The notes below the pieces were generated by a model. That model had not been told where the DNA came from. It ran no database searches and was given only the letters and a program-made list of their open reading frames with translations. From contig CALUYB010000010.1 of the NCBI GenBank assembly GCA_944324905.1, forward strand, positions 1-60,764: a stretch of DNA of 60,764 nucleotides. Direction: 5' to 3'. Positions 7,194 to 34,378 of this stretch are shown piece by piece; position 1 is the first letter of the stretch, and each line of letters begins with the position of its first letter. Both the position numbers and the translations under genes were made by a program. The stretch is from Candidatus Gastranaerophilales bacterium (GTDB lineage: Bacteria > Cyanobacteriota > Vampirovibrionia > Gastranaerophilales > Gastranaerophilaceae).

Positions 7194-7762
7194 GTCATGC
7201 TGAATTTATTTCAGCATCTTAAAAGCGAATGCTTAAAAGTTTTAACGTGTATGTTTATAAGACCCTGCCGAGTAGGGACATTTTCTATGGCTCAGCTTCG
7301 CTTCGTCAAGAAAAGCAGTCAAACAAGTTCAGGGTGGGGAGTGGACAGACCCTGAAACAAGTTCAGGGTGACGGTTGGGTCGTTCAGGGTGACACTAAAA
7401 CGTCATGCTGAATTTATTTCAGCATCTTAAAAGTGGACGCTTAAAAGTTTTAACGTGCATGTTTATAAGACCCTGAAACAAGTTCAGGGTGACAGGTGTA
7501 GGTGTTCAGGGTGACAAGGGCGGATAGACCCTGAAACAAGTTCAGGGTGACGGGTTGGGTCGTTCAGGGTGACAGGTGTAGGTGTTCAGGGTGACACTAA
7601 AACGTCATGCTGAATTTATTTCAGCATCTTAAAAGCGGACGCTTAAAAGTTTTAACGTGTATGTTTATAAGACCCTGCCCAGTAGGGTTATAAGACCCTG
7701 AAACAAGTTCAGGGTGACGGGTTGGGTCGTTCAGGGCGACAGGTGTAGGTGTTCAGGGTGAC
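7194..7762. repeat. Cluster of palindromic interspersed repeats
   Basis: Three head palindromes (ATGCTGAA ... TTCAGCAT) start at 7194, 7402 and 7604. Four full tail palindromes (AGACCCTGAAACAAGTTCAG and six more bases) lie at 7347-7372, 7468-7493, 7526-7551 and 7693-7718. Partial tails and a variant tail with CCCTGCC and AGTAGGG are mixed in. The unit at 7402-7493 is 92 bp, shorter than the 123-bp version near the window start because the linker differs. No gene is present. Confidence 0.9.
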
Positions 7763-29570: not shown

Positions 29571-31946
29571 TTAATTCTTCGTCCAATATATGTAAACATA
29601 CCCATTTTGACCTTTTGCACCTGCTCCTGGGGTTGGGTAGCTTACACTATCAAAGCTCCAGCCGCCACCGCCACCGCCTGCACCAGCCGAGCCGTAATTT
29701 ATCGCTTTAAATACCCCAGCAGGATATTCAAACTGAGCAACATTTGCCCCATTTACATTGTTATTTACACATATACTTGAGTTGTTAAATAACCCTCCAC
29801 ATGAGCCTTTTATGCCTATTCCGCTTTCTCCGCCCTGACCTCCGGCGCTCACGCTAAATGTGCCAATAACTAAAGTTCCATCACTTCCTTTTTTACCTTT
29901 TTTAACTTCGCTGCTTTTGATGTTAGAGCTCCAGCTTCCGCCTTCTCCGCCAACACCTTGAACTACACTTGAGCTTTCGCTTTGTGCAACTCCAAGGCCT
30001 CCGCCAAGACCTCCTTGAACAATGTATACTCCGCTATCAGCACTAATAGAGGACTCGCCGCCATTTTCTCCTGCAGCGCTTATACTTCCTCCATTACCAC
30101 CACCACCTACTTTTACAACATATTCTTTTAATCCCGTAACGGCAATTTCACTTATCTGTGCCATTGAACCTCCGCCGCCACCACCACCGGCAGCTGCTTG
30201 ATAATTTACATCATACTTTAGCTCAACAACGCCATTTGCGCCATTTCCGCCTTTGCCTTTTTTTGTGTTGTTGCTCGAGTCAAAGCCTATTGTTCCGCCA
30301 CCGCCACCTGAACCCCAAGTTGAACCTTTTGAGCCATTTACAGAACTTGCTGAACCTCCAGTACCGCCGCCAGAGTAACTATCTGAACTATACATTGAAC
30401 CACCGCCAATACCACCATTAGCAGCGTTTGTTTCACTTGCACCACTTACACTTTGACCGCTTGAACCACTAGCCCCTGCGCCAGAGCAGTTTGTGGCAGT
30501 CCATGCGCCATTTTGATAAATTTGACAAGTATTTGCAGCCTTTTGAGCGCCGCCTGCGCCACCTGCGCTTGAAGTCGCACCCTTACCACCGTTACCGCCT
30601 GAGGCTTTTAAGCCCCATTTTAAAGTACCGTCTTTATCATAAATTGCAATGTAGGAGTCTGATCCATTAGAACCATTTGAACCATTGCCATCTTTAGAGC
30701 TTGCTGAACTGCCACCGGCACCACCAGCTGCAGCAAACATCACAATCTTTCCACCAATGTTTGAATCAAGAATATCCTGTGGAATAGTGTAATTCTTAAA
30801 ATACGGTGCACTACTACCACCACCACCTGAGAGGGAGGTGTTTGAGGGGGCTGCACCTTCAAGTACGCAGCGAGAAGAATTTGCGTATTCCGGATAATCA
30901 ATATCTAAGCTACTAAATACACCGTAACTTAAGTTCATCCGGTAGTAATTGCCAACACTATTGGCTGAAGATGACCATATGGCACTTGGATAACAGGAGC
31001 TATTATTTCCTGCGCCAAAACATTTGATACTACTGCTGCATTGTGGTGCACCATAATCATTGATTGCGTCGCAAAACCTTAAGCCATTGTCACCTTGATT
31101 TTTGTTAATAGCGTTGTTTTTTGATCTCCATTTGGATAATTCGTTTTTTGTAGGCAATCTCCAATCACCTGCTTTTGTGCCATTGTAAGCCAAGGTTTCG
31201 CATGAAGTATTGGCTGCATGCCAAGTACAGACTGTTCTACCGCAACCGCTATAACTTGTGCCTGAGCTGTTACAATATTGTGAAACATAGCTTCCTTTCC
31301 AGCAACATGTTTTGGGTTCACACCTGTAACTGGCAGCCTGAACGGTCGTAACAGATGTTGCAATACCCCCATTTGGTGCACCTGGAATATCACCGACATT
31401 ATATTTTGTAACACATACACCTGTTGATGTTCCATTTTGCTCTGGAGTTAGGTACTTAGCATCATACTTATCGCAATCCGCCTGACTTGTTGGTGCTGAA
31501 CTTTCAGTCCCGCTCCAACTCCCGCCGCCTCCGCCACCGCCGGAGCCAGAGAGATAATTAACCTTCACATTTTTTAAACCGCTTGTAATATCAAGCTCTT
31601 TTGTAACACTAGCTGTCGCTGTAGTATTTGTAACAGTTTGAATTTTATCATACGCAACACCGGCGTTTGTGGCACCTGCTCCGCCGCCACCGCCTGATAC
31701 CATTATCGCATTTATGTTTTTAACCCCAACAGGCGCACTAAATTTGCAAATAAGAGAATTATTACTCTCAGTAGTGCAATCAGGATCATCTGTATCATAC
31801 AAAAATAATCTTGTATCATTTTGTGCTGAACCTGACCTAATATCTTCTTCAAATCTTTTTGTAATCATAGGAGCTAAAACAACAAATATTATTGAAATAA
31901 TTACTGTTGATACAAGTAACTCACTTAATGTCCATGCTTTTTTCAT
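29571..31946 (-). CDS. Giant prepilin-like protein with glycine-rich and DUF1566/lectin-like domains (paralogue 1)
   Basis: 791 residues. The N-terminus is a type IV pilin/pseudopilin helix (KKAWTLSELLVSTVIISII), but the expected cut site G-F is A-W here while the E+5 glutamate remains. Next come a short beta domain, a glycine-rich stretch (about 85-150), a cysteine-rich DUF1566/C-type-lectin-like domain (about 155-364, with DWRLPTKNEL, WSSSAN, RCVLEG) and a long glycine-rich tail ending NGYVYIYWTKN. AAGGAA precedes the ATG. It lies 32 bases after its paralogue, so they are cotranscribed. Much of the protein matches the paralogue closely; residues about 290-361 do not. Likely a surface adhesin anchored through a pilus or secretion system (inference). 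Confidence 0.85.
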   Translation of the reverse strand: MKKAWTLSELLVSTVIISIIFVVLAPMITKRFEEDIRSGSAQNDTRLFLYDTDDPDCTTESNNSLICKFSAPVGVKNINAIMVSGGGGGAGATNAGVAYDKIQTVTNTTATASVTKELDITSGLKNVKVNYLSGSGGGGGGGSWSGTESSAPTSQADCDKYDAKYLTPEQNGTSTGVCVTKYNVGDIPGAPNGGIATSVTTVQAASYRCEPKTCCWKGSYVSQYCNSSGTSYSGCGRTVCTWHAANTSCETLAYNGTKAGDWRLPTKNELSKWRSKNNAINKNQGDNGLRFCDAINDYGAPQCSSSIKCFGAGNNSSCYPSAIWSSSANSVGNYYRMNLSYGVFSSLDIDYPEYANSSRCVLEGAAPSNTSLSGGGGSSAPYFKNYTIPQDILDSNIGGKIVMFAAAGGAGGSSASSKDGNGSNGSNGSDSYIAIYDKDGTLKWGLKASGGNGGKGATSSAGGAGGAQKAANTCQIYQNGAWTATNCSGAGASGSSGQSVSGASETNAANGGIGGGSMYSSDSYSGGGTGGSASSVNGSKGSTWGSGGGGGTIGFDSSNNTKKGKGGNGANGVVELKYDVNYQAAAGGGGGGGSMAQISEIAVTGLKEYVVKVGGGGNGGSISAAGENGGESSISADSGVYIVQGGLGGGLGVAQSESSSVVQGVGGEGGSWSSNIKSSEVKKGKKGSDGTLVIGTFSVSAGGQGGESGIGIKGSCGGLFNNSSICVNNNVNGANVAQFEYPAGVFKAINYGSAGAGGGGGGWSFDSVSYPTPGAGAKGQNGYVYIYWTKN
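30855..31082 (-). other. Divergent lectin core of paralogue 1
   Basis: This segment codes residues about 289-364. Flanking sequence is nearly identical in the two paralogues, yet here only framework positions agree (CD, YG, C, WSS, YR, RCVLEG). Hand count gives about 42% GC over 30841-31080, and codons are of the host type (GAT TAT, AAT AGT). It is the counterpart of the GC-rich core in paralogue 2. Confidence 0.6.
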
Positions 31947-31978
31947 ATCTTAATTCCTTAAAAACTCCCCAAAAACTC

Positions 31979-34378
31979 CTATTTCGTCCAGTAAATATAC
32001 ACATACCCGTCTTGCCCCTTAGCGCCAGCTCCCGGGTTTGGGAAAGTAATACTGTCACTACTCCAGCCGCCACCGCCACCACCTGCGCCTGCTGAGCCAT
32101 ACTCTGCACTTTGACTAATATTATCAGGTGCGCTAAACGTCGGGGTTATTCCGTTAACATCAGGATTTGAACAGAACAATACATTTGTATAAAGACCACC
32201 GCAGCCGCCTTTGACTTTTATTCCGCTTTCTCCACCGCGTCCACCCCAGGAGCTTGAGGTTCCATCGGTTGAATTTTGCCCGTCAGAGCCTTTTTTGCCT
32301 ATTCGATATTCGCTATCGCCCTTGCCTGCCGAGTTTGATGTGATTTGACCGCCATCGCCCCCAAGTCCATGGGTTGCTCCTGCAGCGTTACTGCTACCTA
32401 CTTTTCCACCCTTTCCGCCTTTTGCGCTAATTTCTAACGTACCAAAGCTTACGGATGAATCGCCGCCATCAGACCCTCCAATGGCACTATTTCCGCCATT
32501 TCCGCCTCCGCCGACTCTGACTGTATAAACGGTTGATGGAGTAATTAAAATATCTCTTAATTTAACAAATGCGCCACCGCCGCCGCCACCACCGGCAGCA
32601 GCTTGATAACTCACATCATACTTAAGCTCAACAACGCCATTTGCGCCATTTCCACCTTTGCCTTTTTTTGCGTTGTTGCTCGAGTCAAAGCCTACTGTTC
32701 CGCCACCGCCACCTGAACCCCAAGTTGAACCCTTAGAGCCATTTACAGAACTTGCTGAACCTCCAGTACCGCCGCCAGAGTAGCTATCTGAACTATACAT
32801 TGAACCACCGCCAGCACCACCATTAGCAGCGTTAGTTTCATTTGCACCACTTACACTTTGACCACTTGAACCACTAGCACCAGCGCCAGAGCAGTTTGTA
32901 GCAGTCCATGCGCCATTTTGATAAATTTGACAAGTATTTGCAGCCTTTTGAGCGCCACCTGCGCCACCAGCGCTTGAGTTTGCACCCTTACCGCCATTAC
33001 CACCAGCAGCCTTTAAGCCCCATTTTAAAGTACCGTCTTTATCATAAATTGCAATGTATGATTCTGAGCCGTTATTGCCGTTGCTTGCACTTGAGCCAGA
33101 TGAGCTTGCAGCAGCACCGCCTGAGCCACCTGCTGCAGCAAACATCACAATCTTTCCGCCAATGTTTGAATCAAGAATATTCTGTGGAATAGTGTAATTC
33201 TTAAAATACGGCGCACCACTACCTCCGCCGCCCCCGTATGAGTTATAGGTCTGAGCTCCGCCCTCCAGGACACAGCGAACCGACTCGGCGGTGCGCGGGT
33301 AGTAGTAACTCTCGCCGAACGTACCACTATTCAAGTAGTAGCGGTAGTAGTAGCTACTACTGTAGGCAGTAGATGACCAGACGCGGTACGGGCCGCAGTC
33401 ACCACTTGACCCGCCGCAAACGTTGTCAGTGTTGCATAGCGCTGCGCCGTAACCGCTGTAGTGGTCACAGAGCCTCAAGCCATCGTCACCTTGGTTTTTG
33501 TTAATAGTGTTAATGTTGCTTGACCATTTAGATAATTCATCTTTAGTAGGTAATCTCCAATCACCAGCTTTTGTACCATTATATGCTAATGCTTGGCATG
33601 AAGCATTTCCAGCGTACCATGTGCATACTGTTCTATTACAGCCACTGTAAGTTGTTCCAGAGCTATCGCATGGGCTTGCAGTTTTTCCTTGCCAACAGCA
33701 TGCGTTAGCTGAACAATATGAATTTGTTGGTACAGTTGTAACAGATGTTGCAATCCCTCCATTCGGTGCATCTGGTATGTCTCCAATATTCCATTTTGTA
33801 ACACAAACCGGTGTTCCATTTTGAGCGGCTGTTAAAAATTTCGCGTCATATTTATCACAATCTGCCTGAGAAGTTGGTGCGCCACCTGCGCTTCCCTGCT
33901 TCCAGCTCCCGCCGCCTCCGCCGCCGCCGGAGCCAGAGAGATAATTAACCTTCACATTTTTCAAACCGCTTGTAATATCAAGCTCTTTTGTAACACTAGC
34001 TGTCGCTGTAGTATTTGTAACTGTTTGAACTTTATCATACGCGACACCGGCGTTTGTTGCGCCAGCACCTCCGCCACCGCCTGAGACCATAACAACATTT
34101 ACTGATTTTGCGCTTGATGGTGCGCTAAATTCGCAATCATATGCACGAGATCCATCTGAGGCAGGTTTGCACTTTGAATCTGTCGCTGCCTCATCGTAGG
34201 TGTATAGTTTAAATTCACTAAGCGTACTATTGCTAATTTTAATATTGCTTGCAACCCTTTTTGTAACAACAGGCGCAAGCGCCACCATGATAATTGAGAT
34301 AATAATCAATGCAAGCGTAAGCTCTGCAAGTGTAAACCCCTTGGCGCGATTTTTCGCGCAAGTAAATTGAGTAGTCAA
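31979..34378 (-). CDS. Giant prepilin-like protein with glycine-rich and DUF1566/lectin-like domains (paralogue 2)
   Basis: 799 residues. It has a canonical prepilin peptidase site (KGFTLAELTLALIII; cut after G14, E at +5), then a beta domain, a glycine-rich segment (about 98-158), a cysteine-rich DUF1566/lectin-like domain (about 170-373, with DWRLPTKDEL, VWSSTAYSS, SVRCVLEG) and a glycine-rich tail ending GYVYIYWTK. The start is TTG at 34378, supported by AAAGGA 9 bases upstream and by the absence of any ATG before the prepilin motif. It is first in a two-gene operon. The lectin core is much GC-richer than the rest and is treated separately. Probably a surface or pilus-associated adhesin (inference). 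Confidence 0.85.
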   Translation of the reverse strand: MTTQFTCAKNRAKGFTLAELTLALIIISIIMVALAPVVTKRVASNIKISNSTLSEFKLYTYDEAATDSKCKPASDGSRAYDCEFSAPSSAKSVNVVMVSGGGGGAGATNAGVAYDKVQTVTNTTATASVTKELDITSGLKNVKVNYLSGSGGGGGGGSWKQGSAGGAPTSQADCDKYDAKFLTAAQNGTPVCVTKWNIGDIPDAPNGGIATSVTTVPTNSYCSANACCWQGKTASPCDSSGTTYSGCNRTVCTWYAGNASCQALAYNGTKAGDWRLPTKDELSKWSSNINTINKNQGDDGLRLCDHYSGYGAALCNTDNVCGGSSGDCGPYRVWSSTAYSSSYYYRYYLNSGTFGESYYYPRTAESVRCVLEGGAQTYNSYGGGGGSGAPYFKNYTIPQNILDSNIGGKIVMFAAAGGSGGAAASSSGSSASNGNNGSESYIAIYDKDGTLKWGLKAAGGNGGKGANSSAGGAGGAQKAANTCQIYQNGAWTATNCSGAGASGSSGQSVSGANETNAANGGAGGGSMYSSDSYSGGGTGGSASSVNGSKGSTWGSGGGGGTVGFDSSNNAKKGKGGNGANGVVELKYDVSYQAAAGGGGGGGAFVKLRDILITPSTVYTVRVGGGGNGGNSAIGGSDGGDSSVSFGTLEISAKGGKGGKVGSSNAAGATHGLGGDGGQITSNSAGKGDSEYRIGKKGSDGQNSTDGTSSSWGGRGGESGIKVKGGCGGLYTNVLFCSNPDVNGITPTFSAPDNISQSAEYGSAGAGGGGGGWSSDSITFPNPGAGAKGQDGYVYIYWTK
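33260..33481 (-). other. Candidate DGR-type variable region in paralogue 2
   Basis: Codes residues about 300-373. GC is about 57% by hand count over 33241-33480, against about 42% for the same stretch of paralogue 1. The codons are dominated by TAC, AGC/AGT, GAC, CAC, CGC and AAC, with runs such as YSSSYYYRYYLNSG and GESYYYPR. These are the codons expected when AAC/AAT sites of a template are mutated at adenine, the hallmark of diversity-generating retroelements, and the segment ends in SVRCV as in many DGR lectin targets. No reverse transcriptase or template copy is in the window, so the call is inferred. Confidence 0.5.

Follow-up and report, generated by a model that had tools for sequence, protein, structure and literature searches.

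A lectin-gene segment in a Gastranaerophilales genome as a probable remote variable region of a diversity-generating retroelement

The window is a stretch of 60,764 nucleotides that makes up the whole of contig C10 in a 1.66-Mb genome assembly of 24 contigs (G000; 99.5% complete), whose named relatives are Candidatus Gastranaerophilales MAGs. It carries a tandem pair of genes, paralogues 1 and 2, in which a prepilin-type N-terminus is followed by a lectin domain and a Gly-rich C-terminal domain (Table 1). Within paralogue 2, the initial annotation had flagged 33260–33481 (minus strand) as a candidate variable region (VR) of a diversity-generating retroelement (DGR); this segment makes up the latter half of the lectin domain. 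The score of that domain against the DUF1566-like family Lcl_C is just under the cut-off of 34.9 bits, and a sequence-profile search of solved structures with it gave no match. A fold search did: the AlphaFold model (mean pLDDT 83) matches Legionella Lcl (8q4e), Bdellovibrio Bd2740 (8oks) and Treponema TvpA (2y3c) with Z values of 8–10, and TvpA is a solved DGR target. By the below-cut-off Lcl_C match and the fold matches of the model, the domain has a C-type-lectin fold, the usual fold of the ligand-binding proteins that DGRs target.

Table 1. Features of the target locus and of the template loci (positions without a contig or locus name are those of the window).
Feature	Position	Strand	Basis or remark
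Paralogue 2 (target gene)	31979..34378	minus	intact ORF, 799 aa; Pfam N_methyl, Lcl_C, Gly_rich_2
Prepilin-type N-terminal methylation motif, aa 10-34	34277..34351	minus	PF07963 E=2.4e-5; TIGR02532 17.5 bits, cut-off 16.3
Lcl_C / C-type-lectin domain, aa 229-370	33269..33694	minus	PF07603 E=1.1e-7, 32.6 bits; AlphaFold model fold matches
Probable DGR variable region core (TGTGAC...TGTCCT)	33267..33472	minus	alignment with TRs and VRs
IMH-like motif TCGGTTCGCTGTGTCCTG, 3' end of VR	33266..33283	minus	exact match
Gly-rich C-terminal domain	31988..32602	minus	PF21722 E=3.6e-17
Paralogue 1	29571..31946	minus	same architecture as paralogue 2; codon alignment
TR_A	C1:208827-209035	minus	short lectin copy outside any lectin gene, near RT
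TR_B	C1:17121-17329	plus	short lectin copy outside any lectin gene
TR_A leader element	G000:C1:209108-209195 (L019:5108-5195)	minus	upstream of TR_A
Distal element	G000:C1:208658-208747 (L019:4658-4747)	minus	downstream of TR_A, leader homologue
TR_B leader element	L020:8966-9053	plus	upstream of TR_B

The flagged segment is an island of high GC. Its content is 58.6% (the hand count had given about 57%), against 35.5% for the window and 48.1% for the gene, and it is the richest 222-nt stretch of the window; 32 of some 60,500 222-mers are as rich, all of them starting within 33204–33260. Of the sharp bounds described for the island, the 5' edge on the coding strand stands (36.7% GC in the adjoining 150 nt), while the 3' edge grades into the Gly-rich linker (49.3%). 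GC3 reaches 0.73 in the VR and falls to 0.22 in the part of the lectin directly upstream, with 0.32 for the remaining gene. The codons at variable positions (TAC, AGC/AGT, GAC, CAC, CGC and AAC) and the SVRCV at the end of the core, found as ESVRCVLEG, were as annotated.

The absence of a reverse transcriptase (RT) and of a template repeat (TR) from the window had also been described correctly. No RT was found among the window ORFs of 24–44 kb and no RVT_1 protein or TR anywhere on C10; whole-genome searches, which had been suggested as a check, placed the only RVT_1 protein and both TRs on contig C1. The RT gene (C1:211822–213003, minus strand; E = 3e-16) encodes the motifs IGNLTSQ and YVDD, and its closest PDB relative is bRT of Bordetella phage BPP-1 (8ub7, E = 4e-33; next best 1e-6). 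By these marks the enzyme is a DGR-type RT. A 130-aa ORF just upstream, overlapping the RT start, matches DivGenRetAVD (NF033474; 36.6 bits, 4e-9) and bAvd (PF22296; 34.8 bits, 2.5e-8), scores that are under the curated cut-offs of 80 and 40, respectively, and make the Avd-type accessory beside the RT a relative of these families. The distances to the contig ends put the window VR at least about 90 kb from the RT.

One TR–VR pair in this genome is restricted to adenines. TR_B and the VR of the RT-adjacent lectin gene (C1:210465) differ at 14 of 50 adenines and at 0 of 156 other positions (Fisher p = 5e-10), and no bias appears when the roles are reversed. Because the differences are confined to adenines, the DGR of this genome has worked. 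The two sequences are about 193 kb apart; TR_B may act in trans, or its core may once have resided at the RT locus. TR_B (L020:9119–9332) contains a TAA in the target frame, both adenines of which are altered in the VR product, giving TTT. The cores of TR_A and TR_B differ from each other at about 30 non-adenine sites. The 3' ends of TRs and VRs share the IMH-type sequence TCGGTTCGCTGTGTCCTG. With one mismatch allowed, its occurrences in the genome are limited to the two TRs and eight VRs, and the reversed control pattern gave 0. At the level of sequence, the RT, the Avd-like gene, the TRs, the adenine-restricted pair and the common motif show a DGR system, to which the model adds a predicted lectin fold.

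For the window VR, the match to the TRs of its own genome is of another kind. It differs from TR_A at 18 of 48 adenines and 32 of 152 other sites, and from TR_B at 19 of 47 and 31 of 152. With this many non-adenine mismatches, neither is its recent template; the adenine-restricted template copy anticipated by the initial annotation exists for the RT-adjacent VR and was not found for the window VR. Comparisons with other species were made with one genome per species, from fragmented assemblies that may lack some repeats. Against TR1 of a sister species (G005), the window VR differs at 22 of 58 adenines and 15 of 142 other sites (p = 1.6e-5; 2 of 38 with roles reversed), the only comparison with a clear adenine bias. 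TR1 is also its nearest sequence, nearer than any VR known in the two genomes, and across 15 VRs the adenine sites of TR1 vary at 0.44, against 0.14 elsewhere. The window VR combines an exact IMH with an adenine bias against a TR from its lineage; neither TR of its own genome matches it in an adenine-restricted way. Three of the 15 non-adenine differences (T to G, T to C) are explained by no known TR, so the cognate template is an unseen one. Searches of G000 for a third TR (BLAST at E up to 1, leader DNA, IMH pattern and covariance model) returned only TR_A, TR_B and one distal element, and the particular template may have been lost or replaced, or may be missing from the assembly. We rejected a simple mosaic of the known TRs as the source of the window VR: 7 of its 206 positions match no TR, and no TR has an adenine there.

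The sister species allows the gene itself to be followed. In G005, TR1 differs from VR C8:72380 at 20 of 60 adenines and 1 of 142 other sites, and from VR C23:1276 at 25 of 60 and 5 of 143 (p = 4e-11). The second of these VRs belongs to the syntenic orthologue of the window gene, beside rpsT. Because of the 25/60 and 5/143 differences and the location of TR1 on a different contig, the orthologue is a remote DGR target, and it is very likely that the window gene has, or once had, this role in G000; for it, we infer a direct TR–VR pair. Excess variation in the segment was likewise borne out, in a comparison with this one orthologue: identity is 73–79% in the VR and 81–93% in its immediate flanks. 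Identity is also low in the C-terminal part, because G005 has one recombinant gene where G000 has two. Set against window positions 29571–34378, the single G005 gene (L060) is like paralogue 2 in its 5' part and like paralogue 1 in its 3' part, which points to recombination within the tandem pair. There are ten prepilin-lectin paralogues in G000, dispersed over the genome. Paralogue 1 lacks the IMH and any adenine bias (p about 0.55 against every TR), and by both measures is not a current DGR target; the contrast drawn earlier between the two window genes is real. The paralogue on contig C12 also has no adenine bias.

We consider it highly probable that the core in Table 1 is the VR of a remote DGR target, with the RT, the Avd-like protein and the TRs on C1 of the same genome. 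A TR transcript headed by a structured leader would be copied by an RT–Avd complex with random bases at adenines, and the mutated cDNA would replace the VR between the conserved TGTGAC start and the IMH by retrohoming. Delivery to the window gene would be in trans. The altered residues would then lie in the C-type-lectin domain of a prepilin-type, Gly-rich protein, presumably displayed on the surface for adhesion, and one machine would serve about eight prepilin-lectin paralogues.

Ordinary homologous gene conversion could instead swap VRs among paralogues or unlinked copies, with the DGR mutating few loci now and the window VR a transplanted or fossil DGR product. Most VRs of G000 are without a close TR, as such exchange would have it; the paralogues do recombine, as the one G005 gene in place of two attests, and in a congener an expressed VR is almost identical to a stored cassette (see below). 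The window VR, however, is nearer to a TR than to any VR, as a direct product of a template would be, its IMH is exact, and its G005 orthologue is strongly adenine-biased against a TR present there, all of which makes exchange an improbable account of it. That the island came in by horizontal transfer or reflects codon bias, and that diversifying selection of the ordinary kind acts on this lectin segment, with no DGR link, would suit its strong GC and GC3 contrast to the rest of the gene but is highly improbable, given that the high-GC core recurs with the IMH in eight genes and two TRs with adenine-biased differences, that IMH-less paralogues are unbiased, that the genome has a DGR RT, and that the adenine-only pair of TR_B and VR C1:210465 speaks strongly against it. 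The reading as a DGR variable region was therefore largely right: a DGR-type RT, an adenine-restricted template copy and excess variation, whose absence had been named as contrary evidence, were each found, and it falls short in that the window VR's own template is absent from the assembly.

The TR loci share more than their lectin cores. The ~170 nt upstream of TR_A and TR_B are 97% identical and include a leader element, a homologue of which lies downstream of TR_A; 3' of this distal element come another IMH-like copy, which lacks 1 nt, and then a T-rich hairpin resembling a terminator. Ten such elements from five species yield a structure in which 28 cells show two-sided compensatory change; shuffles gave 10.8 ± 2.6, and sliding gave no more than 7. 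In a covariance search of 58 genomes, the element was found in five species only, all of the same genus, and its three matches in G000 are all at TR loci. No Rfam family matched at E up to 1, where only tRNAs were hit, and neither the TR leader nor the RT had a match among viral contigs. We propose that the leader RNA recruits RT–Avd. Beneath this conserved, covarying leader RNA, the TR cores turn over between sister species.

The system is like the DGR of BPP-1 in its closest solved RT, Avd-like partner, adenine-specific TR–VR differences, C-type-lectin target and IMH at the VR 3' end. Unlike that DGR, it is chromosomal, has one RT for many dispersed targets, several TRs, a mid-gene VR and a leader RNA before each TR. 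A position close to the 3' end of the gene is typical of VRs (PMC7517822), though it does not define them; in paralogue 2, ~1.3 kb of coding sequence is 3' of the VR, and each intact paralogue of G000 has ~430 codons after it. Among cyanobacterial DGRs, one DGR has C-type-lectin paralogues as genome-wide remote targets (PMC7517822), but the remote variable proteins there are mostly cytosolic multidomain regulators with 3'-terminal VRs, whereas those of G000 are prepilin-lectin-Gly-rich proteins with internal VRs. In Thiohalocapsa PB-PSB1, targets are diversified in trans and some VRs have no matching TR in the assembly (PMC10907252), as in G000; those targets are conflict-system sensors, served by several RTs at transposon-shaped loci, in contrast to the single RT and adhesin-like targets here. 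Surveys include multi-TR, multi-VR DGRs, such as that of Stenotrophomonas SKA14 (PMC6642488), where a single genome combines two TRs with several targets of DUF1566 type, as in G000; our searches of that paper found no covarying leader RNA, TR turnover or lectin-cassette bank. Our literature search found nothing linking DGRs with Gastranaerophilales or Melainabacteria, which is weak evidence in that subscription papers lay outside the search. The elements that appear novel are a host group whose prepilin-lectin targets carry the VR mid-gene, a leader RNA with covariation, the turnover of TRs between sister species, and the bank of cassettes. The findings would place a trans-acting DGR, aimed at a prepilin-lectin surface protein family, in the Gastranaerophilales, gut bacteria that are related to cyanobacteria but non-photosynthetic. 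Because target, template and enzyme each have their own locus and templates are replaced between closely related species, the origin of TRs, their change and their pairing with remote targets become a testable question.

The TR slot of a congener (G002; RT at C1:337077–338207) is occupied by about 31 two-ended lectin cassettes at ~265-nt spacing (C1:341283–349770; L079/L068), bounded by a leader at 341122, a second leader at 347699 and a distal element at 349921. Thirty cassettes have an open lectin core, and the median identity between pairs of cassettes is 66%. We rejected the view that the cassettes are ordinary mutagenic TRs, because they are poor in AAC/AAT codons, the mark of mutagenic templates. 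Over 215 nt, the VR of the RT-adjacent lectin gene has 98.6% identity to cassette 348689. It differs by one deletion in the motif and by two substitutions, each at an adenine of the cassette. The position of the substitutions is compatible with copying by the RT, but there are two only, and the expressed VR may derive from RT copying of the template bank or from homologous gene conversion. No cassette array was found beside the RT of another genome, G009.

Silent-cassette antigenic variation is known from the pilS and vls banks. Like these, G002 has a donor bank beside one expression site copied from it and nearly identical to one cassette; unlike them, the bank occupies the template slot of a DGR, bordered by leader RNA elements and adjoining a DGR RT. 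For the combination of a DGR with silent cassettes, the literature search (subscription papers lay outside it) gave one general review only. A tentative idea is that the template of the genus DGR might be an exchangeable slot, in which cores are swapped under the leader RNA, and that in G002 the slot might have grown into a bank of pre-diversified cassettes copied by the RT into one expression site. If so, mutagenic retrohoming would be joined with cassette switching, a retroelement-driven counterpart of the pilS and vls banks, and the congener bank a possible bridge from DGR hypermutation to silent-cassette antigenic variation.

Two further observations concern the state of the system in the genus. 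In G004, a decayed fragment of an RT, interrupted by two stops, was found along with two leader elements (C26:3575–3835 and C25:23992–24081), and this species seems to have lost its DGR. In the RT-adjacent target genes of G005 (C8:72380; L055 about 7366–7383) and G002 (C1:339673–339690; L079:9673–9690), the IMH carries the same 1-nt deletion (CGGTCGC) that is present in the distal element after the TR; it puts both genes out of frame and is possibly an off-switch.
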